A stretch of 64,000 nt of DNA from Bifidobacterium dentium JCM 1195 = DSM 20436 (GTDB lineage Bacteria > Actinomycetota > Actinomycetes > Actinomycetales > Bifidobacteriaceae). The notes beneath the pieces are model-generated. The model was not told the origin of the DNA and did no database searches. It worked only from the letters and a program-made list of their open reading frames with translations. The position numbers were made by a program, and so were the translations under genes. The stretch spans positions 186,001-250,000 of the forward strand of contig NZ_AP012326.1 in NCBI RefSeq assembly GCF_001042595.1. The letters are read 5' to 3'. This document shows, one piece after another, positions 117-47,006 of the stretch; positions within the stretch are counted from its first letter, which is position 1; each line of letters begins with the position of its first letter.

Positions 117-328
117 GCGAGAGTCGGCCTGTTGCTCGACGGTGGCGTCCTTAAGTCCGTGTGGCTCGGGTTCTGGACTGCGAGAATCGGCCTGTTGCCC
201 AACGACGGCAGCCTCAAATCGGTCTGGGAACGGCTCTTACCGTTGAGGAACGGGGCGATTCTCGCGGTTTGCAGCCCCAAACACACGGGCTCGAGGCCGT
301 CACCGTCGAGCAACAGGCCGATTCTCGC
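117..328. repeat. Inverted array of 63-bp repeats
   Basis: Two direct copies start at 117 and 180 with GCGAGARTCGGCCTGTTGC. Two inverted copies end at 265 and 328 with CGATTCTCGC. Both pairs are spaced exactly 63 bp. The outer arms 117-145 and 300-328 are almost perfectly complementary, so the block could fold into a long cruciform. The frame of the downstream reductase stays open through the array from 161, and 63 bp is 21 codons. Upstream bases 1-116 show no gene I can support. Confidence 0.85.
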
Positions 329-388
329 GGCGTATGCCCCATGACTGCTGCCCTAAGGATTCCCGAGCCAGTCAGTGGGTATGTGAGA

Positions 389-1483
389 ATGAAATCAGGG
401 TACGAGAAGGAGATGGCGTTGAAGGATTCAGCAACGGACGCAGTGCCAGGTGCAGTGATGGGCGAACTGGCAGGATTTACGATTCCTCGGCTTGGCATGG
501 GAACGATGGCGCTGGCGATCGAGGGCCGGCCGGATCGTGACACGGCAATCCGCGCGATTCATGCCGGTCTGAATGCCGGCGTGCGATATCTGGATACCGC
601 ATGGTCGTACTATCTGCCGAGCCGGCCCGGTACCGGAACCCCGGAGGATCTGGGCTATGGCGAGAAACTGGTGCGTGATGCGTTGGCGACCTGGGATGGT
701 CCGCGCGATGAGGTGCTTGTCGCCACGAAGACCGGTTACCGTCGCACGATGGAGCCTGCCGTGCGAGTGTCCGATTCACCAGAATCGGACACTGACGATC
801 CAGCAGCCCCGTGTGCATATTCCGCGGCACGCGATGACGATTCCGTAACACCTGCTATGCGGTCCGACCGATCTGCGGAACGTCAGCATCTGCAGGCCGT
901 TGGCAGTCGATACGGTTGGATGGCGGATTCGCGGCCCGAAACGATGATTCGCGATGCGAAGGAGTCGGCCATGCGCCTCGGTGTGGAGGCGCTCGATTTG
1001 CTGTATTCGCATGGTCCGGATCCTGCGGTGGATTATGCGGATCAGATCGGTGCGCTCAAGCGACTGCTTGACGAAGGGGTGATCAGGAACGCCGGCATTT
1101 CGCGCGTGAACAACGAGCAGATTGACCTCGCCCGTGAGATTTTGGGAGATGGCTTGGTTGCCGTGCAGAATCAGTTCTCACCGTCATACCCCGACCCCGA
1201 ACATACGCTGGAACACTGTGAGAAGCTAGGTCTTGCGTTCGTCTGTTGGTCGCCATTGGGGGGATTCCTCGATGCGTTCGACCAACGCGCGTACGATGCG
1301 TTCCGCGTGATTGCCGATAAGCGTGGATGCTCCTACCAGCGTGTGGTATTGGCTTGGGAGTTGAGTCGCTACGACCGGCTGTTCACCATCCCGAGTGCCC
1401 GCAATCCGCATGAGATTCAGGATTCGTTCGCCGCTACCGAACTTACGCTTGCCGATGAGGAGCTTGGATTCCTGAATAGCTAG
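389..1483 (+). CDS. Aldo/keto reductase family protein with repeat insertion
   Basis: Predicted cytosolic NAD(P)H-dependent oxidoreductase with a TIM-barrel fold; the substrate is unknown. Counting from ATG 389, the AKR tetrad is visible as D69 and Y74 (RYLDTAWSYY), K114 (VATKTGY) and H208 (LLYSHGPDP). Between K114 and the conserved YGWMADSRPE segment lies about 45 extra residues, rich in Asp, Ser and Arg, that families of this type normally lack. It begins with VSDSPESDT, encoded by the dispersed palindrome at 768-791. The start is uncertain: ATG 389 has a weak ribosome site, ATG 413 directly abuts AGAAGGAG, and ATG 458 is also possible. The frame is open upstream to 161, but that part is repeat DNA and was excluded. 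No operon partner is evident. Confidence 0.8.
   Translation: MKSGYEKEMALKDSATDAVPGAVMGELAGFTIPRLGMGTMALAIEGRPDRDTAIRAIHAGLNAGVRYLDTAWSYYLPSRPGTGTPEDLGYGEKLVRDALATWDGPRDEVLVATKTGYRRTMEPAVRVSDSPESDTDDPAAPCAYSAARDDDSVTPAMRSDRSAERQHLQAVGSRYGWMADSRPETMIRDAKESAMRLGVEALDLLYSHGPDPAVDYADQIGALKRLLDEGVIRNAGISRVNNEQIDLAREILGDGLVAVQNQFSPSYPDPEHTLEHCEKLGLAFVCWSPLGGFLDAFDQRAYDAFRVIADKRGCSYQRVVLAWELSRYDRLFTIPSARNPHEIQDSFAATELTLADEELGFLNS
768..791. repeat. Dispersed palindrome, single copy inside the reductase
   Basis: The arms read TGTCCGATTC and GAATCGGACA with a short centre (ACCA). This is the same family as the repeats at 22900-22974 and 45480-45656. Here it is translated in frame as VSDSPESDT. Further copies at 51-bp offsets are not recognisable. 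Confidence 0.85.
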
Positions 1484-7327: not shown

Positions 7328-7370
7328 GGAGCACCTTCTCCGTGAATCTTTTCGAATCAAGACATGTGAA

Positions 7371-7430
7371 CATGTATGAATGTATACGAAAGTATACCAA
7401 CATGTACGAATGTATACGAAGATGTACGAT
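7371..7430. repeat. Two 30-bp direct repeats upstream of the ATPase gene
   Basis: The copies at 7371-7400 and 7401-7430 both begin CATGTAYGAATGTATACGAA. A third begins at 7431 and stops after about five bases. The core TGTATACG is itself palindromic around GTATAC. The position, just upstream of the ATPase start, suggests iterated binding sites, possibly for the ATPase itself. Confidence 0.75.
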
Positions 7431-7504
7431 CATGTGTGGCGCTGTGCGAGCGTCCGTATGCGGTATGGCCCGTTCCTCGGCGTTCGTTGGCGATCCAAGC
7501 TTGT

Positions 7505-11415: not shown

Positions 11416-12729
11416 ATGAACGCTGCAGCTCAGAAGAAGGAAGGAATCGGCGGGTACATGCCGCTCGCGGTTGCCGCAGGCATCGGTTCCATGCTGGGAT
11501 CCGGCATCATCGTCGGCCTGTCCGCAACCATCACCGTCTGGCAGAACGGTCTCGGCCTCGACACCACCCAGGTCGGCCTGCTTTCCGGCATCCTGACCTT
11601 CGCCATCGCGTTCGGCTCGCTGTTCGGCGGCCGTCTGGCCGATAAGATCGGCCGTGTGCTGGTGTTCAACTGGATCAACCTGCTGTATGCCATCGGCGCC
11701 GCCATCTGCGTGTTCGCGCCGGACTTCACCGTACTGCTCATCGGCCTGATCATCGCCGGCGTCGCCTCGGGTGCGGATCTGCCGATCTCCATGACCATCG
11801 TCTCCCATGACGCCCCGAACGACAAGGTCGCCGCGCAGCTCGTCTCCACCACCCAGGTGTTCTGGCAGGTGGGCGTGTTCATCTCCTTCATCTGCGCGTT
11901 CCTCGTCTCCACCATGGAGGGTGCGATGGGCGGCCGCGTGGTCTTCGCCATCCTCGCCGTGTTCGCCGTCATCGCATGGCTGTGGCGTCTGATCTCCCCG
12001 ACCTTCCGCCGCTTCCACGAGGAAGCCGACGCCCGTGATGCCGCCGCAGGCCACGTCGCCACCGCCACCGAGAAGGTCTCCGTCACCAAGATGCTGTTCG
12101 CAGGCACCGAAAACAGCAAGATGCTGCTCGGCTTCTTCCTGGCCATCACCATCTTCTACTGCGGCTGGAACCTGCTGGCCAACACCTGGGGTCAGTTCCA
12201 GACCTACATGCTGGTGCAGGCCAACGCCTCCCAGTCCCTGGCCACCGGCCTGGGCATCATCCTGAACTTCATCACCCTCGCCCTGAACATCGCCTTCGCC
12301 TCCATCGCAGGTGGCAAGTATCGCAACAAGCTGTTCTTCGTGGGCATGGGCATTTCCATCGTGGCCATGGTCTGCCTGGCTCTGGGCGGCACCAACATGT
12401 GGGTCATCTTCGGCGCCACCGCACTGATGAACCTCGGTGGTCCGTTCGCCGGCGAGGCCATGTACAAGGTGTGGACCCAGGAATCCTTCCCGATCGAGAT
12501 CCGCGCCTCCATCCAGGGCTTCATCAACGGCTTCTCCCGCCTGCTGTGCGGCCTGTTCGCCCTGATCACCCCGGCCCTCGTGCTGCCGTCCACCATCAAG
12601 ACCACCATGTGGTGCTTCGTGGGCGTGGTCGTGCTCGAACTGGTCGCCGGCTCGATCATGATCGCCAAGCAGAACAAGTACGGCACCGACGAGGAGCGCC
12701 AGCTCAAGGCCTCTTCCGCCGAAGCATGA
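11416..12729 (+). CDS. MFS sugar transporter of the rhamnoside locus
   Basis: A 437-residue, twelve-helix MFS permease. The loop 2-3 motif is GGRLADKIGR, and later helices include SFPIEIRASIQGFINGFSRL, typical of the sugar porter branch. It probably imports rhamnose-containing glycosides or rhamnose. It is the first gene after the three palindromic operators and is followed 69 bp later by the GH78 gene, so it is the presumed head of an operon. ATG 11416 follows GAAGGAAAAGAG. Confidence 0.85.
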   Translation: MNAAAQKKEGIGGYMPLAVAAGIGSMLGSGIIVGLSATITVWQNGLGLDTTQVGLLSGILTFAIAFGSLFGGRLADKIGRVLVFNWINLLYAIGAAICVFAPDFTVLLIGLIIAGVASGADLPISMTIVSHDAPNDKVAAQLVSTTQVFWQVGVFISFICAFLVSTMEGAMGGRVVFAILAVFAVIAWLWRLISPTFRRFHEEADARDAAAGHVATATEKVSVTKMLFAGTENSKMLLGFFLAITIFYCGWNLLANTWGQFQTYMLVQANASQSLATGLGIILNFITLALNIAFASIAGGKYRNKLFFVGMGISIVAMVCLALGGTNMWVIFGATALMNLGGPFAGEAMYKVWTQESFPIEIRASIQGFINGFSRLLCGLFALITPALVLPSTIKTTMWCFVGVVVLELVAGSIMIAKQNKYGTDEERQLKASSAEA

Positions 12730-21016: not shown

Positions 21017-22360
21017 ATGTTCTTTCTCCGCATGATTTTCCGCTCGTTCAGCCGTCAGTTCAAACGCCGTCTGCTGATCGCCGTCACCGTGTGCCTGTCG
21101 GCCACCGTGAGCGTGGCCATGCTCGGCGTGGTGTTCGACGTGGGCGACAAGCTCAACGCGGAACTGTCGACATACGGCTCGAACATCACCGTGCAGCCGA
21201 AGGCCGACGCGGTGGTGAGCGACCTGTACAACACGGGCGGATCTTCGGGTTCGTCCTCCGATTCCGACCCGACCGCGTTCCTCAAGGAATCGGATGCGCC
21301 GAAGATCAAGACGATCTTCTGGGCATTCAACATCACCAATTTTGCGCCGGAACTCAACATCCACGTGGACGCGGGATGCTCGGACGGCTCGGCATCCGCC
21401 GATTCATGCAAGGCCACCAACGTGCCGATCGTGGGCACATGGTTCGCCAAAACCCTGCACATGGATTCCGGCGAATCCACCGTGGCCGGCATGAATGGCA
21501 TGCGTTCCTGGTGGAAACTCGACGGTTCCTGGCCAAAAGACGACACCGAACAGGGACTGATCGGCACCAGCCTGGCTTCGCAGCTCGGCGTGAAGATCGG
21601 TGACACCGTCACGCTTGGCAAGACCATCTCCACCGGCGAACGCAATCAGGTGAAGGTGAAGATCACCGGCATCTACGATTCGGGCGATTCCGACAACAAC
21701 GGCATGTACATTCCGTCCATCGTGGCGCAGACGCTGGCGAATCTGCCCGATTCGATCGACAAGATCGAAGTCAAGGCGCTGACTACGCCTGACAACGATC
21801 TGGCGCGCAAGGCATCGAAAAACCCGAATGCGCTTACGCAAGACGAGTGGGAGACATGGTACTGCACCGCATATCCGTCATCCATCGCCTATCAGATCGA
21901 AGAGGTGATTCCGGGGTCGGTGGCCAAGCAGGTGCGTCAGGTCGCCGCATTGCAGGGCGATGTGCTTCAGAAAACACAGGCGGTGATGGTGCTGATGACC
22001 GTGCTGTCGCTGGTCGCGGCCGCGATTGCCGTGGCGAATCTGATGGCCGCCTCGATTGGCGAACGCGGCTCCGAACTTGCTTTGATGAAGGCGATCGGCG
22101 CGACGGATGGTGCGGTTTCCCGCCTGATGCTCGCCGAAACCGCCGTGATTTCGCTGGTCGGCGCGCTGGTCGGCGCGTTGTTTGGCTCCGGCGTGGCGCA
22201 GATCGTCGGACACGTGGTGTTCGGCTCCGGCATTACGATGCGTCCGATGGTGTTCGTACTGGTGTTCGTGCTGCTTGCCGTCACCGTGCTCATCGCCTCG
22301 TTCTCGTCGATTCGTTCGATTCTGAACCTGAAGCCTGCGGAGGTGCTCCATGGCCGCTGA
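21017..22360 (+). CDS. FtsX/MacB-type ABC permease of the iron operon
   Basis: A 447-residue permease with one N-terminal helix, an exported domain of about 250 residues (MacB periplasmic core type) and three C-terminal helices of the FtsX fold, including ERGSELALMKAIGATDG. It is predicted to form a heteromeric mechanotransmission ABC complex with the next two genes. In this context it probably acts on the P19/DUF2318/FMN proteins rather than translocating iron itself. ATG 21017 follows AAAGGAG. The stop overlaps the next start. Confidence 0.85.
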   Translation: MFFLRMIFRSFSRQFKRRLLIAVTVCLSATVSVAMLGVVFDVGDKLNAELSTYGSNITVQPKADAVVSDLYNTGGSSGSSSDSDPTAFLKESDAPKIKTIFWAFNITNFAPELNIHVDAGCSDGSASADSCKATNVPIVGTWFAKTLHMDSGESTVAGMNGMRSWWKLDGSWPKDDTEQGLIGTSLASQLGVKIGDTVTLGKTISTGERNQVKVKITGIYDSGDSDNNGMYIPSIVAQTLANLPDSIDKIEVKALTTPDNDLARKASKNPNALTQDEWETWYCTAYPSSIAYQIEEVIPGSVAKQVRQVAALQGDVLQKTQAVMVLMTVLSLVAAAIAVANLMAASIGERGSELALMKAIGATDGAVSRLMLAETAVISLVGALVGALFGSGVAQIVGHVVFGSGITMRPMVFVLVFVLLAVTVLIASFSSIRSILNLKPAEVLHGR

Positions 22361-23696
22361 TCGTAGGAAACATGAAATGACCAATCGCAAGATGTTCTTC
22401 GCCATGCTGTGGGGTGCGGTGTTCCGTCGCCGTTCGCGTGCGGTGATGGCCGTGATCGCATCGCTGGTAGGTGCGGCCACGCTGTTCTGCCTGGCTTCCG
22501 TGTGCATTGCCGTACCTCAGCAGATGAACGAGGAGATGCGCGCATATGGCGCGAACCTCATCGTCACCCCTGCCGATGCGACCTCGAAATCCGAAGGTAT
22601 CAGCACGGCCACCATCACCAACGTGACCGCGCTCGTAACGGCCGAACACAGCGCGAAATCCGCCGCCTATCGTTACGAAAGCGTGCGCATCAACTCCGCA
22701 CCGTATACGTTGGCCGGCGTCAATCCCAAGGCCGTGCAGACGCTGAACCGCCACTGGAACGTGACCGGTGACTGGCCGAGCGAGGGCAACGTGATGGTGG
22801 GCCGCGATGTGGCCGACGCACTCGGGGTGCATATCGGTTCGCGTATCACCATCGGCTACCGTGCCTCCGACAATTCGGCCGCGTCCTCCGCATCAGGATC
22901 GTCCGATTCTGGAGAATCGGACAACCAAAGCGACGAAAACGGGTCCCAGATGTCCGATTCTGGAGAATCGGACAATCAGACGGTGGGCAAACTGGGGCAG
23001 ACCGAATCCCAAGTCAAGGAAAACGGCCGCGTCTCATCCGACATCATGAACAATGAAGGTACCGAATTCCGCGTGGCCGGCATCGTCGATACCGGCGGCA
23101 ACGAGGATTCCATCGTGTACGCCACCACCGCTGATGTGGCCAAACTGGCCGGCTCCAAGCGTGGCGCCGACGTGGTCGAATATTCCGTGAACGCCATGGG
23201 CGATGACCTGAACGCCATCGTCAAAACCCTCAATGCCAACCCGAACACCGGCGTGAAGGCGCAGACCGTCACCAAAATCACCTCGTCCGATACTCGCATC
23301 ATCACCATGCTGCAGACACTGTTCTGGATCGTATCGCTTGTCGTGCTGGTGCTGACGCTGGTCGGCGTGGGAACCACCATCAGCTCCATCGTGAGTCAGC
23401 GGCGCAACGAAATCGGCCTACGCAAGGCCTTGGGCGCGTCATCGCAGGCAATCGGCACCGAATTCTACGTGGAATCCGCCATCTATGGGCTCATCGGCGG
23501 TCTGTTCGGCACGGCCATCGGCTATGCGCTGGCCCGTGTGCTGTGCGTCACCGTATTCGAACGTGCCATCGGCTTTAATTGGCTGTTGGGCCTCGCATCG
23601 CTCGTGTTGAGCATGCTGATCGCTGTCGTCGCGTCCATTCCGCCGGTCCGCCGCGCAACTCGTATTGACCCCGCCATCGTTTTGAGGGAGGAATAA
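22350..23696 (+). CDS. FtsX/MacB-type ABC permease carrying two palindrome repeats
   Basis: A 448-residue paralogue of the preceding permease, with an N-terminal helix, exported core and three C-terminal helices with QRRNEIGLRKALGASSQ. The start codon lies inside the previous gene (11-bp overlap), so translation is coupled. The exported domain has a hydrophilic insert at about residues 180-215. It consists of two copies of SDSGESD (185-191 and 202-208) separated by ten residues, encoded by the palindromes at 22900-22974. A surface loop would tolerate this. The partner permease has no such insert. Confidence 0.85.
   Translation: MAADRRKHEMTNRKMFFAMLWGAVFRRRSRAVMAVIASLVGAATLFCLASVCIAVPQQMNEEMRAYGANLIVTPADATSKSEGISTATITNVTALVTAEHSAKSAAYRYESVRINSAPYTLAGVNPKAVQTLNRHWNVTGDWPSEGNVMVGRDVADALGVHIGSRITIGYRASDNSAASSASGSSDSGESDNQSDENGSQMSDSGESDNQTVGKLGQTESQVKENGRVSSDIMNNEGTEFRVAGIVDTGGNEDSIVYATTADVAKLAGSKRGADVVEYSVNAMGDDLNAIVKTLNANPNTGVKAQTVTKITSSDTRIITMLQTLFWIVSLVVLVLTLVGVGTTISSIVSQRRNEIGLRKALGASSQAIGTEFYVESAIYGLIGGLFGTAIGYALARVLCVTVFERAIGFNWLLGLASLVLSMLIAVVASIPPVRRATRIDPAIVLREE
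22900..22974. repeat. Two dispersed palindromes at 51-bp spacing within a permease gene
   Basis: The copies lie at 22900-22923 (first base C instead of T) and 22951-22974. The arms are TGTCCGATTCT and AGAATCGGACA around GG. The 27-bp interval between them is not repeated elsewhere. The period, 51 bp, equals that of the array at 45480-45656. Both copies are read in frame as SDSGESDNQ. Confidence 0.92.
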
Positions 23697-26365: not shown

Positions 26366-26527
26366 TGGATGGTCGTAATTTCTTGGAATTGATCAATCGG
26401 GCGTGAATCGATATCTGCTTTGGCTTGTTTCAAAGCAAAGGGGATATGTTGCGGCGGGTAGGGTTTCCTGTGACACGCCTGAAATAATGCGGAAGTTGAG
26501 AATCCGGAAGCAGTGCATTATAGTTGT

Positions 26528-26539
26528 GGTAACGTTACC
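26528..26539. promoter_or_regulatory. LacI-type operator GGTAACGTTACC
   Basis: A perfect 12-bp palindrome followed by GCA. The same sequence and flank recur at 26573-26584, 45 bp downstream, and a variant precedes rbsA. It is the probable binding site of the RbsR-like repressor encoded next. Confidence 0.85.
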
Positions 26540-26572
26540 GCATTGAAATGGTAAAGGAGCTGAATTAGATGA

Positions 26573-26584
26573 GGTAACGTTACC
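26573..26584. promoter_or_regulatory. LacI-type operator GGTAACGTTACC (second copy)
   Basis: Identical to the site at 26528-26539. An AAAGGAG sequence and a two-codon frame, ATG AGG TAA (26569-26577), overlap it, probably by chance. The rest of the gap 26585-26842 shows no gene I can support. Confidence 0.85.
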
Positions 26585-26842
26585 GCATTAGCTGTAACTT
26601 AATATATGCAAAGAATATGCAAGATTGGGTTACCTGATGGGTGAAAGAAACAGACCTGATTCATTCGACAACGTCGAAGTTCCGAATGAATTTTGCGGAA
26701 CGTAATGGAGGCGTCCAAGTCGTCCGCAGTCAGACATACATAAAAGAGGCGGCAATTGATCTCATCCAACCCAATGAGGATGGGTTCCGGAAGCGAGACT
26801 GGCAAGCCGCACATGGTATTCTCACAGTTGAGAGGAGGTGTT

Positions 26843-44459: not shown

Positions 44460-44547
44460 ATTCTTCCTTGGGTAAAGCCAAAGGCGTCGGTTACGGTAGC
44501 GGATCGTCCGATTGCCGCATAACGAAACTAACGTAGCACCTTGTGCG

Positions 44548-44587
44548 CTTTCGGGGTACCCGTTATGCACAATCGGTACCCCGAAAG
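44548..44587. other. Perfect 13-bp inverted repeat upstream of the glycosyltransferase
   Basis: CTTTCGGGGTACC (44548-44560) pairs with GGTACCCCGAAAG (44575-44587). It lies 89-128 bp before the glycosyltransferase start, between two minus-strand genes, so it may be an operator or the end of the upstream transcript. A second short hairpin (TTGACGTT/AACGTCAA, 44637-44661) follows nearer the tetR stop. Confidence 0.7.
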
Positions 44588-44682
44588 TCGTAAACTGCAC
44601 CTGAAATTCCCCCTAGGGATACCTTCGGTACATTCGTTGACGTTTGTTCGCTTAACGTCAATCCTTGCGACTGCGGTAGCCG

Positions 44683-45438
44683 TCAGTCCGCTTCCGTCTC
44701 TTCCGGCGAAGAAGTCGCCATCGGGGATGACTGGGGGAGGGGATTCTCGGATTTCGGCCCTTTTACGGCTTTTCTTTCTTCTCTCTCCATGCGTTTTTCC
44801 GCCTCCCGTTGCGCCTTGTCCCCTTCGAAACGCAGCTCCGGCTTGGCTTCCATGCGGCTCAGGCCGTACCAGGCGAGATTCACGATGTGCGCGGCCAGCT
44901 GCTCCTTGCTGAGCTTGCGCTGGTCGGCCCAATACTGGCAGGTGTATACGGTCATGCCGATGAGCATCTGCGCATAATATGGCACGCCCTTGGCGGGTAG
45001 GTGCTGGCGTTTGAACGATTCGGTGAGCAGGTCTTCCACGCGAATGCTGATATCGCCGAGCAGTGAGCTGAACGATCCGGCCGGATCGGTTTTCGGCGAA
45101 TCTCGGGTGAGCACGCGAAATCCTTTGGCGTTCTCCTCCACATAGGTGAGCAGGGCCAGTGCGGCACGTTCCACGATTTGACGAGGGTGCGCCTGTTGGT
45201 CGGACAGCGCGTTGACGAGTGTGTCGGTGAGTGCGCGCATCTCACGGTCCACCACTACGGCGTACAGGCCTTCCTTGCCGCCGAAATGTTCATAGACGAT
45301 GGGCTTCGATACCTTCGCGGTCGCGGCAATCTCCTCTACGCTTACCGCTTCGAACCCCTTCGACGCGAACAGCGACCGACCGATTTCGATGAGCTGCTCA
45401 CGTCTTTGGAATGACGTCATCCTGGATGTACTGGCCAT
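44683..45438 (-). CDS. TetR family transcriptional regulator
   Basis: A 251-residue TetR-type protein. The DNA-binding region is QLIEIGRSLFASKGFEAVSVEEI-AATAKVSKPIVYEHFGGKEGLYA near the N-terminus. A helical ligand domain follows, and a charged tail (KAQREAEKRMEREERKAVKG) extends beyond the usual length. ATG 45438 is preferred; ATG 45420 is a close alternative. The frame continues upstream to 45882 through the palindrome array, which would add SDSPESD-type repeats, but no ribosome site supports it. Its targets are unknown; the nearest divergent gene is ftsY. Confidence 0.85.
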   Translation of the reverse strand: MASTSRMTSFQRREQLIEIGRSLFASKGFEAVSVEEIAATAKVSKPIVYEHFGGKEGLYAVVVDREMRALTDTLVNALSDQQAHPRQIVERAALALLTYVEENAKGFRVLTRDSPKTDPAGSFSSLLGDISIRVEDLLTESFKRQHLPAKGVPYYAQMLIGMTVYTCQYWADQRKLSKEQLAAHIVNLAWYGLSRMEAKPELRFEGDKAQREAEKRMEREERKAVKGPKSENPLPQSSPMATSSPEETEAD

Positions 45439-45479
45439 GCTGTCCAGTTTTTCACGCCCCGTGGATGAGCTCCTCCGAG

Positions 45480-45656
45480 TGTCCGATTCTCCAGAATCGG
45501 ACACATAAGGTACCCGCACACGCCCTTGCATGTCCGATTCTGGAGAATCGGACAACTGTGGGGAAGCGGAGCGTATCTGTTTGTCTGATTCTGGAGAATC
45601 GGACATGTAGGATGCCTGCATGTGCCTCTGAGTGTCTGATTCTGGAGAATCGGACA
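45480..45656. repeat. Array of four palindromes with exact 51-bp period
   Basis: Copies start at 45480, 45531, 45582 and 45633, each 24 bp, with arms TGTCCGATTCT / AGAATCGGACA. The first copy has centre CC, the others GG. Copies 3 and 4 share a C-to-T change in the left arm. The three 27-bp intervals differ. It lies between tetR (minus) and ftsY (plus). Open frames cross it on both strands with a 17-residue period, but neither is supported as a gene start. It superficially resembles a small CRISPR array. Confidence 0.95.
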
Positions 45657-45702
45657 GGTGAGGATGGGGCGATGTGTCCGTTGCGGTTTTTAGGCTGGGA
45701 TT

Positions 45703-46899
45703 ATGGATACCAATGTGATTATCGCGATTGTCGCCATTGTTGTGATTGCAGCGCTGTTGCTGCTTGGTGGTTGGTGGTTCGGCAAGTCGCGCAAGAAAGC
45801 CGTAGACAAGTCCGTTGAGGATGCCAAGGCCAAGGCTGATAAGCGTCTTGCCCAAGAAGTCCAGAAAGCTGAGACGGCCCAAGAAGCCGAGGAAGTCCAG
45901 GAAGTAGCGGCCGAAGTCCCTCCGATCGCCTCGACGGAAGAGGCGAAGGCCGCGCCGGCGGTGGAAACCCCGGAGTCCACGGGCTCGCGCATTCAGCGTC
46001 TCAAGGCCAAGCTGGCCAAGTCAGGCAATCCTTTTGGCAAGGTATTGTTCAACATCCTCGCCAAGGACCATCTTTCCGAGTCCGATTGGGAGGATGTCGA
46101 AGACACCCTGCTACTTGCTGACGTCGGCGCCGAGGCCAGCGAACAGTTGGTTGAGGAACTGCGTAACGATGCCCGCATCAGCGGTCAGTCCGATCCGTCC
46201 GAAGTGCGCAAAGCCTTGAAAGACAAACTGCTCAAGCTGGTCGGCACCGATACGGATCGTCGTCTCAACGCCGACAAGGAAGGTGCGAACAAGCCGAGCG
46301 TCATCATCATGGTCGGCGTGAACGGCACCGGTAAGACCACCACTGCGGGCAAGCTGGCTCGTCTGTTCGTGGCCGACGGCAAGCAGGTGATGATGGGCGC
46401 CGCCGATACGTTCCGTGCGGCGGCCGCCGATCAGCTCGAAACCTGGGGCGCGAAGGTGGGCGTACCGGTCGTGCGCTCCGACAAGGATGGTGCCGACCCG
46501 GCGTCCGTCGCATTTGAGGCCAGTGAACAAGCCAAGGAAACGCATGCCGACGTACTCATCATCGATACCGCCGGCCGCTTGCAGAACAAGGCGAATCTCA
46601 TGGACGAGCTTGGCAAGATCCGCCGCGTCACCGAAAAGAACCTGCCGGTCGACGAAGTGTTGCTCGTACTCGACGCCACCACCGGCCAGAACGGCATGGC
46701 GCAGGCGAAGGTGTTCGCCGAAGCGATTGGCATTACCGGCGTGGTGCTGTCCAAGCTGGACGGTTCCGCCAAGGGCGGCATCGTGATTTCCGTACAGAAG
46801 GAGCTCGGCGTTCCGGTCAAGCTCGTCGGCTTGGGCGAAGGTCCGGATGATCTCGCTCCGTTCGATCCGGAAGGCTTCGTCGACGGCATCCTCGCCTGA
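45703..46899 (+). CDS. ftsY: Signal recognition particle receptor FtsY
   Basis: A 398-residue SRP receptor that docks ribosome-SRP complexes at the membrane. An N-terminal membrane helix (IIAIVAIVVIAALLLLGGWW) and an acidic Ala/Glu-rich linker precede the helical N domain (from about 95) and the GTPase G domain. G1 is GVNGTGKTTT, followed by AADTFRAAAADQL, DTAGR, LSKLDGSAKGG and GLGEGPDDL. ATG 45703 is close to the four-palindrome array, which lies within its presumed promoter region. A terminator hairpin follows at 46920-46956. Confidence 0.95.
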   Translation: MDTNVIIAIVAIVVIAALLLLGGWWFGKSRKKAVDKSVEDAKAKADKRLAQEVQKAETAQEAEEVQEVAAEVPPIASTEEAKAAPAVETPESTGSRIQRLKAKLAKSGNPFGKVLFNILAKDHLSESDWEDVEDTLLLADVGAEASEQLVEELRNDARISGQSDPSEVRKALKDKLLKLVGTDTDRRLNADKEGANKPSVIIMVGVNGTGKTTTAGKLARLFVADGKQVMMGAADTFRAAAADQLETWGAKVGVPVVRSDKDGADPASVAFEASEQAKETHADVLIIDTAGRLQNKANLMDELGKIRRVTEKNLPVDEVLLVLDATTGQNGMAQAKVFAEAIGITGVVLSKLDGSAKGGIVISVQKELGVPVKLVGLGEGPDDLAPFDPEGFVDGILA

Positions 46900-46919
46900 A
46901 GGACGGACGCCCCGAATGC

Positions 46920-46956
46920 AAACGACCGACCCTGCGTGAAGCACGGTCGGCCGTTT
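46920..46956. terminator. Terminator after ftsY
   Basis: AAACGACCGACC pairs with GGTCGGCCGTTT (46945-46956) through one mismatch and ends in GTTT. It lies between convergent genes. Confidence 0.75.
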
Positions 46957-47006
46957 GGCATCTTGTGCAGTTCTTCGGAACGGCCTTGCCTGCCATGCCC
47001 TCGCTG

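Follow-up and report, generated by a model that had tools for sequence, protein, structure and literature searches.

Beside its replication origin, the chromosome of Bifidobacterium dentium carries dozens of short arrays of a 24-bp palindrome, in which neighboring copies usually follow one another at a step of 51 bp and the intervals between them are mostly unrelated. Sequence comparison suggests that these are cooperative binding arrays of a putative protein that would mark the origin-proximal domain, a reading to which a probability of about 0.5 is given. That the arrays are double-stranded protein-binding sites under selection is, taken by itself, probable, and a role in the origin domain would be similarly probable once binding is granted; the binding-site part is well supported, whereas the chromosome role is one that we infer. 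If the reading is correct, Bifidobacterium would possess a second chromosome-marking system beside ParB-parS, and the precise definition of the site would make both protein and role directly testable. An entry in the CRISPR literature would also be corrected, and the arrays would provide a case of putative DNA-level binding sites that reshape the proteins of their host genes.

The window, a stretch of 64,000 nucleotides (positions 186,001 to 250,000 of contig NZ_AP012326.1), contains seven copies of the motif at up to three mismatches, against 0.00 expected from 100 dinucleotide shuffles (Table 1). An earlier note, made from the letters alone, had described four palindromes at a 51-bp distance upstream of ftsY, separated by intervals that differ from one another, and a pair with the same spacing inside a gene; the positions, the distance, the differing intervals and the in-gene pair were all reproduced. 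The 11-bp arms are complete in copies 1 and 2, and copies 3 and 4 each carry one C-to-T change on the left side. The location beside ftsY is one of 34 places in the genome and not a special one. The ftsY ATG lies 47 bases past the last base of the array, and the neighbors of the array are a glycosyltransferase gene, the TetR gene, ftsY and a Na/H exchanger-like gene. The TetR-regulator frame, whose start codon position is ambiguous, stays open across the array up to 45882 and is the one that reads SDS[PG]ESD. Of the in-gene pair, the first copy begins with CGTCC, its one mismatch, and is 51 bp from the second. The single copy in the 440-aa ORF is absent from the earlier note. Further short tandem repeats, of dyad character by eye, occur at window 7369-7435 and 26521-26595, with units AACATGTACGAATGTATACGAAAATATACC and TAGATGTGGTAACGTTACCGCAT.

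Table 1. Palindrome copies and associated features in the window (window coordinates).
Feature	Position	Strand	Basis or remark
Palindrome copy 1 of the four-copy array (TGTCCGATTCTCCAGAATCGGACA)	45480..45503	no strand	motif scan
Palindrome copy 2 of the four-copy array	45531..45554	no strand	motif scan
Palindrome copy 3, left arm with one C-to-T	45582..45605	no strand	motif scan
Palindrome copy 4, left arm with one C-to-T	45633..45656	no strand	motif scan
Three 27-bp intervals, mutually different	45504-45530, 45555-45581, 45606-45632 (span 45504..45632)		
First palindrome of in-gene two-copy array, one mismatch	22900..22923		reads SDSGESD
Second palindrome of in-gene two-copy array	22951..22974		reads SDSGESD
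Single palindrome copy, one mismatch	768..791		inside 440-aa ORF
440-aa ORF hosting the single copy	161-1483		Aldo_ket_red, E 4e-54
TetR-family regulator, divergent from ftsY	44683..45438	-	TetR_N, E 1.9e-14
ftsY, 398 aa	45703..46899	+	SRP54 GTPase, E 2e-75; SRP54_N, E 2e-11
448-aa ORF with FtsX-like permease domain, host of the in-frame two-copy array	22350..23696	+	E 4e-19

The genome-wide search that the earlier note had suggested returned 75 copies of TGTCYGATTCNNNNGAATCRGACA at up to three mismatches in the whole B. dentium genome (G000; 2,635,669 bp), and a control motif, reversed without complementing, returned 0. Seventy of these copies lie between genome positions 10,599 and 391,073 (10.6-391 kb), beside dnaA, with the DnaA domain at 466-966, and five are outlying (1806935, 1806986, 2176503, 2189719 and 2189770). 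The DnaA domain places the origin at position 1 in this genome; for the other genomes, an origin at position 1 is only suggested by the place of parB. Counted as arrays or single copies, the total is 34 places (30 in the first 309,900 bp, one at 391050 and three far from the origin), and 31 of them fall within 14.8% of the chromosome (binomial p 8e-23, with places treated as independent). The 30 places in positions 1 to 309,900 hold 70 sites, one of which is a five-mismatch copy retained because it is in register, and comprise 14 two-copy, 5 three-copy, 4 four-copy and 1 five-copy arrays along with 6 single sites. Single copies are not relics of longer arrays, since no remnant is found plus or minus 51 bp away at 39 such sites. 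The three-copy arrays at 99069, 103406 and 106068 are each mirror-symmetric as a whole, the altered half-sites (TGGCTG) of the outer copies facing the middle copy. The far place at 2176503 (L095) is shared with G020 at 1959279 (L114), in both cases within a long ABC-transporter-like ORF (about 1300 aa) that holds a single copy in G000 but two in G020; orthology was judged by eye.

Within the arrays of the first 309,900 bp, 37 of 40 intervals measure 51 bp, two 50 bp and one 52 bp, in a count for which all sites except one were located regardless of spacing. Random spacing genome-wide, which the earlier note had named as contrary evidence, is thus not seen. The step is 51 bp in 257 of 274 intervals from ten Bifidobacterium species as well (167 arrays or single sites in sampled stretches; remainder 48, 49, 50 or 52), a count that is somewhat favored because copies with three to five mismatches were admitted only with a neighbor 50-52 bp away. 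Moreover, a motif-free comparison of palindromic dyads at any lag also gives 51 as the strongest lag. Two 100-kb pieces of the B. dentium genome contain 11 and 16 pairs at lag 51 (27 in 200 kb) and 3 and 4 at lag 102, against means for other lags of 0.10 and 0.14 per 100 kb in these pieces and 0.05 in G020. Lag-51 pairs number 5 in G020 and 1 in G001, and 0, 0, 1 and 0 in the first 100 kb of each of four genomes chosen as motif-free. The earlier note had stressed that 51 bp is a whole number of codons. When the first 310 kb are divided by the authors' own ORF calls, all 14 genic intervals measure 51 bp, and because 23 of 26 intergenic ones do so as well, the step is a property of the DNA, from which the reading frame just removes exceptions. 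The reading frame is therefore not the entire cause of the step; the codon multiple explains little alone but could account for the tolerance of arrays within genes.

Across 436 sites, the half-site consists, outward from the center, of two variable bases, GAATCGGACA and then a weakly patterned stretch, with a predominance of pyrimidines at its third base and of purines at its fourth and sixth. Information content declines about 22 bases from the dyad center. In 82% of the sites the two central bases break the symmetry and are then nearly always GG or CC. Departures from the arms are one-sided in 469 cases, two-sided and compensated in 7, and two-sided and uncompensated in 6. Because arm changes are almost never compensated, the sites look like double-stranded protein-binding dyads rather than hairpins, and the one-sided changes would be those of a protein dyad with one tolerant half, not of a stem. 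Against this, two of 26 dyad positions, 11 and 13 from the center, agree slightly above chance (0.991 versus 0.986 and 0.420 versus 0.353), while positions 1, 2, 6, 7, 8 and 15 agree across the center less than shuffles do.

Comparison of orthologous places shows that the arms are constrained beyond their surroundings among close species. B. dentium and B. moukalabense share 95.7% of arm bases, compared with 73.7% of interval bases and 72.7% of the central four bases (arms versus intervals, Fisher p 1e-32); flanks are 86.6% identical where genic and 84.4% where intergenic. This alignment covers 21 of 30 places, with 13% of arm and 27% of interval positions gapped. The same pattern is clear in B. 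ruminantium (9 places; arms 0.953, intervals 0.697), N4G05 (11 places; 0.936 and 0.711) and B. kashiwanohense (14 places; 0.883 and 0.738). The difference is small in B. erythrocebi (4 places; 0.853 and 0.806) and reversed, so that constraint is absent, in B. adolescentis (11 places; 0.832 and 0.848) and B. angulatum (5 places; 0.809 and 0.846). A third or more of arm positions are gapped in the alignments of B. kashiwanohense, B. adolescentis and B. angulatum. The choice of sites by their motif in B. dentium creates a bias toward conserved arms on the dentium branch; by our reasoning, however, this selection at most about halves the divergence and does not account for the sixfold gap seen with B. 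moukalabense.

The arrays themselves turn over. Copy number differs between species at orthologous places: upstream of ftsY there are 4 copies in B. dentium, 1 in B. moukalabense, 3 in B. ruminantium and 2 in B. kashiwanohense (at up to four mismatches). Arrays are also copied, mostly locally. Thirteen interval pairs within a species are alike at 20 or more of 27 bases, against 0 in 20 shuffles. The members of 10 pairs are no more than 6 kb apart, and those of the remaining 3 (two pairs in N4G05, one in B. ruminantium) lie on different contigs. Some near pairs lie 101-102 bp apart in one array (B. erythrocebi, B. merycicum), others are shared by nearby arrays, and one, in B. moukalabense, is an exact copy in inverted orientation. 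In G071, an identical interval recurs in tandem units. The two-copy arrays at B. dentium 12266 and 18163 have 24 of 27 interval bases in common within unrelated flanks, and their similarity covers the array plus a few bases beyond and then ends.

A repeat-and-interval layout is also that of CRISPR, and the repeat has in fact been printed as such: PMC4521832 gives TGTCCGATTCTCCAGAATCGGACA in B. dentium LMG 11045 (8 spacers) and the variant ATGTCCGATTCTGCAGAATCGGACA in B. ruminantium (16 spacers) as "Undetermined" CRISPRs, the repeat being without cas genes. The earlier note's proposal of a modular repeat class that is not CRISPR agrees with a single motif, a 51-bp step, a species-variable copy number and the lack of a phage, plasmid or viral match for the window array; its suggestion of novelty does not survive, as the paper's entry is the same thing as the present repeat under a doubtful label. 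Of the literature matches listed, PMC4521832 is the sole paper with Bifidobacterium and TGTCCGATTC, and any of five 16-base cores appears in it alone. The main text of the CRISPR surveys PMC7284854 and PMC12838274 does not contain the queried repeat ends, the available text of the B. dentium Bd1 genome paper (PMC2788695) reports two CRISPR loci with cas genes and does not mention such arrays, and the 51-bp and palindrome mentions in PMC5746004 are unrelated. Foreign-derived intervals, the outcome that the earlier note had held against its proposal, are not seen for the window array: it has no match at E up to 1 among 50,697 phage and 72,556 plasmid records, and each of its three intervals has 0 exact matches in viral contigs, a test covering 3 out of the 40 array intervals found in the first 310 kb. 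Moreover, rather than one or a few loci outside genes, the repeat occupies 34 separate places in one genome, with 16 of 30 inside called genes, many of these unrelated, and its intervals are copied between arrays in both orientations. The "Undetermined" CRISPR label should therefore be dropped, and a degenerate or orphan CRISPR array is scarcely credible. Hairpins in RNA or as cruciforms, such as terminators or processed small RNAs, are very improbable too and are rejected on the arm changes, of which 469 of 482 are one-sided and 7 compensated. The array RNA does fold strongly (-108.2 kcal/mol versus a shuffle mean of -59.1), but this is no evidence for an RNA, since palindromes must fold; many copies lie in the middle of a reading frame, and an Rfam search of window 44500-47000 returned no family at E up to 0.1. 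Another alternative, operators of a large-regulon transcription regulator with several sites per promoter for cooperative repression, is improbable. It gains from the divergent TetR gene that flanks the ftsY array and from the intergenic position of 14 of 30 places in the first 310 kb, despite 86% coverage by called genes (own GC-frame ORF calls, certainly with some wrong frames, such as 104755-107625). However, 5 of those 14 places lie between convergent genes (6 tandem, 3 divergent), the other 16 fall within called genes, in some cases well downstream of the start, and the confinement of 31 of 34 places to one chromosome sector would be odd for a regulon. With arrays between genes of all orientations and inside genes, no single gene-level role fits. 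A repeat selected at the protein level is likewise rejected on the intergenic places, although 28 of 30 genic copies are in one frame, reading SDSGESD, SDSPESD or close forms (the exception is a pair at genome 292918, close to where a called gene begins).

The main rival to binding arrays is a selfish or neutral palindromic repeat, comparable to Rickettsia palindromic elements, REP or MITE-like sequences, that would spread by local copying, survive where its frame is harmless and serve no host function; it is the less probable of the two. Local copying alone may explain the origin-side clustering, which is the strongest argument for such a repeat. Furthermore, arrays can be extra DNA relative to orthologues without them: the P-type ATPase-like gene at genome 68556-70991 hosts two arrays, both missing in L058 (pongonis) and L061 (merycicum), in which the two array places are shorter by 78 and 186 bp (BLAST ends, alignment). 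The duplication of the whole two-copy array at 12266 and 18163 into unrelated flanks, the inverted identical interval in B. moukalabense and the hydrophilic SDSxESD frame of nearly all genic sites would also be expected of a selfish element. Decaying copies, however, should not keep orthologous arms 95.7% identical while center and intervals drop to about 73%, and gene conversion would have preserved the center too; the same arm constraint appears in B. ruminantium and N4G05, but not in B. adolescentis or B. angulatum. The 51-bp step within as well as between genes also argues against it. Nor are target-site duplications of the MITE kind apparent: among 161 places, flank repeats of 6 or 7 bases are no more frequent than in shuffled pairs, with 2 repeats of at least 7 bases versus 1.6 expected, and the mean flank repeat is slightly above 290 of 300 shuffles. 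REP/BIME elements have a linked RAYT transposase.

Arrays of this kind are limited, in the collections searched, to some members of the genus. Of 112 Bifidobacterium genomes, 15 contain the exact 24-bp form and 27 the pair form when up to two mismatches are allowed; 15 of these 27 carry at least six pairs, and several single pair-form matches look like chance or low complexity. A scan of a genome collection (84,980 species), which may leave out the B. dentium genome itself, returned 52 stretches, 50 from Bifidobacterium and 2 single copies, set aside, in alphaproteobacterial MAGs. Viral contigs contain 0 matches to the exact form. In a scan of the order (396 genomes, 22 of them Bifidobacterium), which by its CGATNC core would miss arrays with other cores, 14 genomes match the core pair. 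Exact pairs occur in G000, G020 and G015, all Bifidobacterium genomes, and the other 11 have one two-mismatch match each; 9 of these 11 are the only matching genomes among the 374 from other genera. Some lineages keep the 51-bp step with altered arms (CGACGGATTC in G024; CGTCCGATTC in G071; like G071 with frequent GATAC or GATCC in G072), as expected if protein and sites drift together.

Origin-side clustering recurs across genomes. In G040, 38 of 39 sites (up to one mismatch) are in the first 296 kb; G060 has 45 sites, and the 36 among the matches listed are all at 34.8-151.8 kb. Exact sites are at 44-178 kb in G020 (8 of 10), 32-111 kb in G019 (7 of 9) and 64-128 kb in G001 (4 of 4). The 2.02-Mb genome G006 has 5 of 6 exact sites at 1.905-1.945 Mb, and the inversion of most of the gene block accounts for this position to the left of the origin. 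Relative to B. dentium 46-109 kb, 16 of the 21 BLAST pieces longer than 500 bp run in reverse, so that the arrays travel with their genes. Against an origin-side rule, the arrays of G071 and G072 are spread over many contigs.

Several candidate binders were considered; no binding protein emerged, a point against the proposed reading. A ParB paralogue is not seen, because the B. dentium genome has one ParB ORF and both ParB_N (PF02195) matches are two stretches of that protein. The two-stretch match, as if split by an insertion, recurs in several other Bifidobacterium. ParB_N is found in 110 of 112 genus genomes; the complete 2.4-Mb genome G043 has no match, and the only other such genome is the fragmentary G094. 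Five exact copies of canonical parS lie within 10 kb left of position 1, on the origin's other side, two of them inside the parB ORF (L097 13712-15019), which spans them and reads VSRET twice. Neither an HTH_Tnp_2 protein (genome 180923-181579) nor a membrane-bound XRE protein (99405-100631) follows array presence, and both were rejected as array-specific binders. The former has merely distant relatives in the array-rich G029 and G045 and a close one in G100, which has no array pair; the latter is missing from G029, G006, G019 and G024 yet occurs in three genomes without an array pair (G011, G063 and G064). YhgE-like genes close to arrays in other species were looked at as well and dropped.

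In the proposed explanation, a putative dimeric Bifidobacterium DNA-binding protein would occupy each palindrome as a double-stranded site, a dyad wider than 24 bp that would reach about 40 bp with its weak flanks. Neighboring sites would be bound together on roughly one helix face, which would fix the step at 51 bp, or about five turns. Many such places, each with between 1 and 9 copies in the species examined, would be distributed across the origin-proximal chromosome, and the complex could serve as an origin-domain landmark in folding, anchoring or segregation, in the neighborhood of ParB-parS but distinct from it. Arrays would change through local copying and the gain or loss of whole units; their persistence inside genes would be due to a step of whole codons and to the harmless SDSxESD that they encode. 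Origin-side clustering together with the lack of a gene-level rule suggests a chromosome role, and the presence of arrays in only some Bifidobacterium indicates that the genus as a whole can do without the function. More tentatively, and with somewhat less than an even chance, the dozens of 51-bp-phased dyad arrays could form a genus-specific, origin-centered, centromere-like system with a putative reader separate from ParB-parS. Its geometry but not its arm sequence would be conserved between lineages, its sites would have spread into coding genes, and it would organize or anchor the origin domain.

Among known systems, plasmid centromeres of the sopC type come close in layout. In the F plasmid, sopC consists of 43-bp repeats with an inverted repeat. 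Such centromeres share regularly spaced dyads for a cooperative partition protein with the present arrays, which differ in that their intervals are mostly unrelated and that they occupy dozens of places, are chromosomal and also occur in genes. Rickettsia palindromic elements, as described in PMC10969869, are likewise palindromic DNA inserted in-frame in many unrelated genes, and in-frame presence in many genes is found here as well. However, those elements are about 150 bp long and encode a peptide, whereas the present units are origin-clustered 24-bp dyads with constrained arms, a 51-bp step and a free 27-bp interval, and share only SDSxESD. PARCEL sequences, according to PMC2996958, are dyad-symmetric DNA in tandem coding repeats of variable copy number that form 25-residue amphipathic protein repeats in ORFs; unlike these, about half of the present places are intergenic, and no more than SDSxESD is shared.

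Another parallel is with parS and NBS, which, as given in PMC7383237, are dyads with a TTCNNNNGAA core in the same phase as here (parS TGTTTCACGTGAAACA, NBS TATTTCCCGGGAAATA). Canonical parS too lies beside the origin, with two of its five copies in the parB ORF, and some array half-sites (TGGCTGATTCAC) are 1 of 12 bases off the native parS half with its flank (TGGCTGTTTCAC). The shared core and the near-parS half-sites offer a hint of a ParB/Noc fold for the putative binder, although the core match is weak evidence, as chance matches of this size are not rare and G072 often lacks TTC. The arrays are nevertheless distinct from the canonical 14-16 bp sites: they carry GATTCNNNNGAATC, apart from canonical parS, and have a wider motif, a free center and a 51-bp array arrangement, while the single B. 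dentium ParB has five canonical parS of its own.
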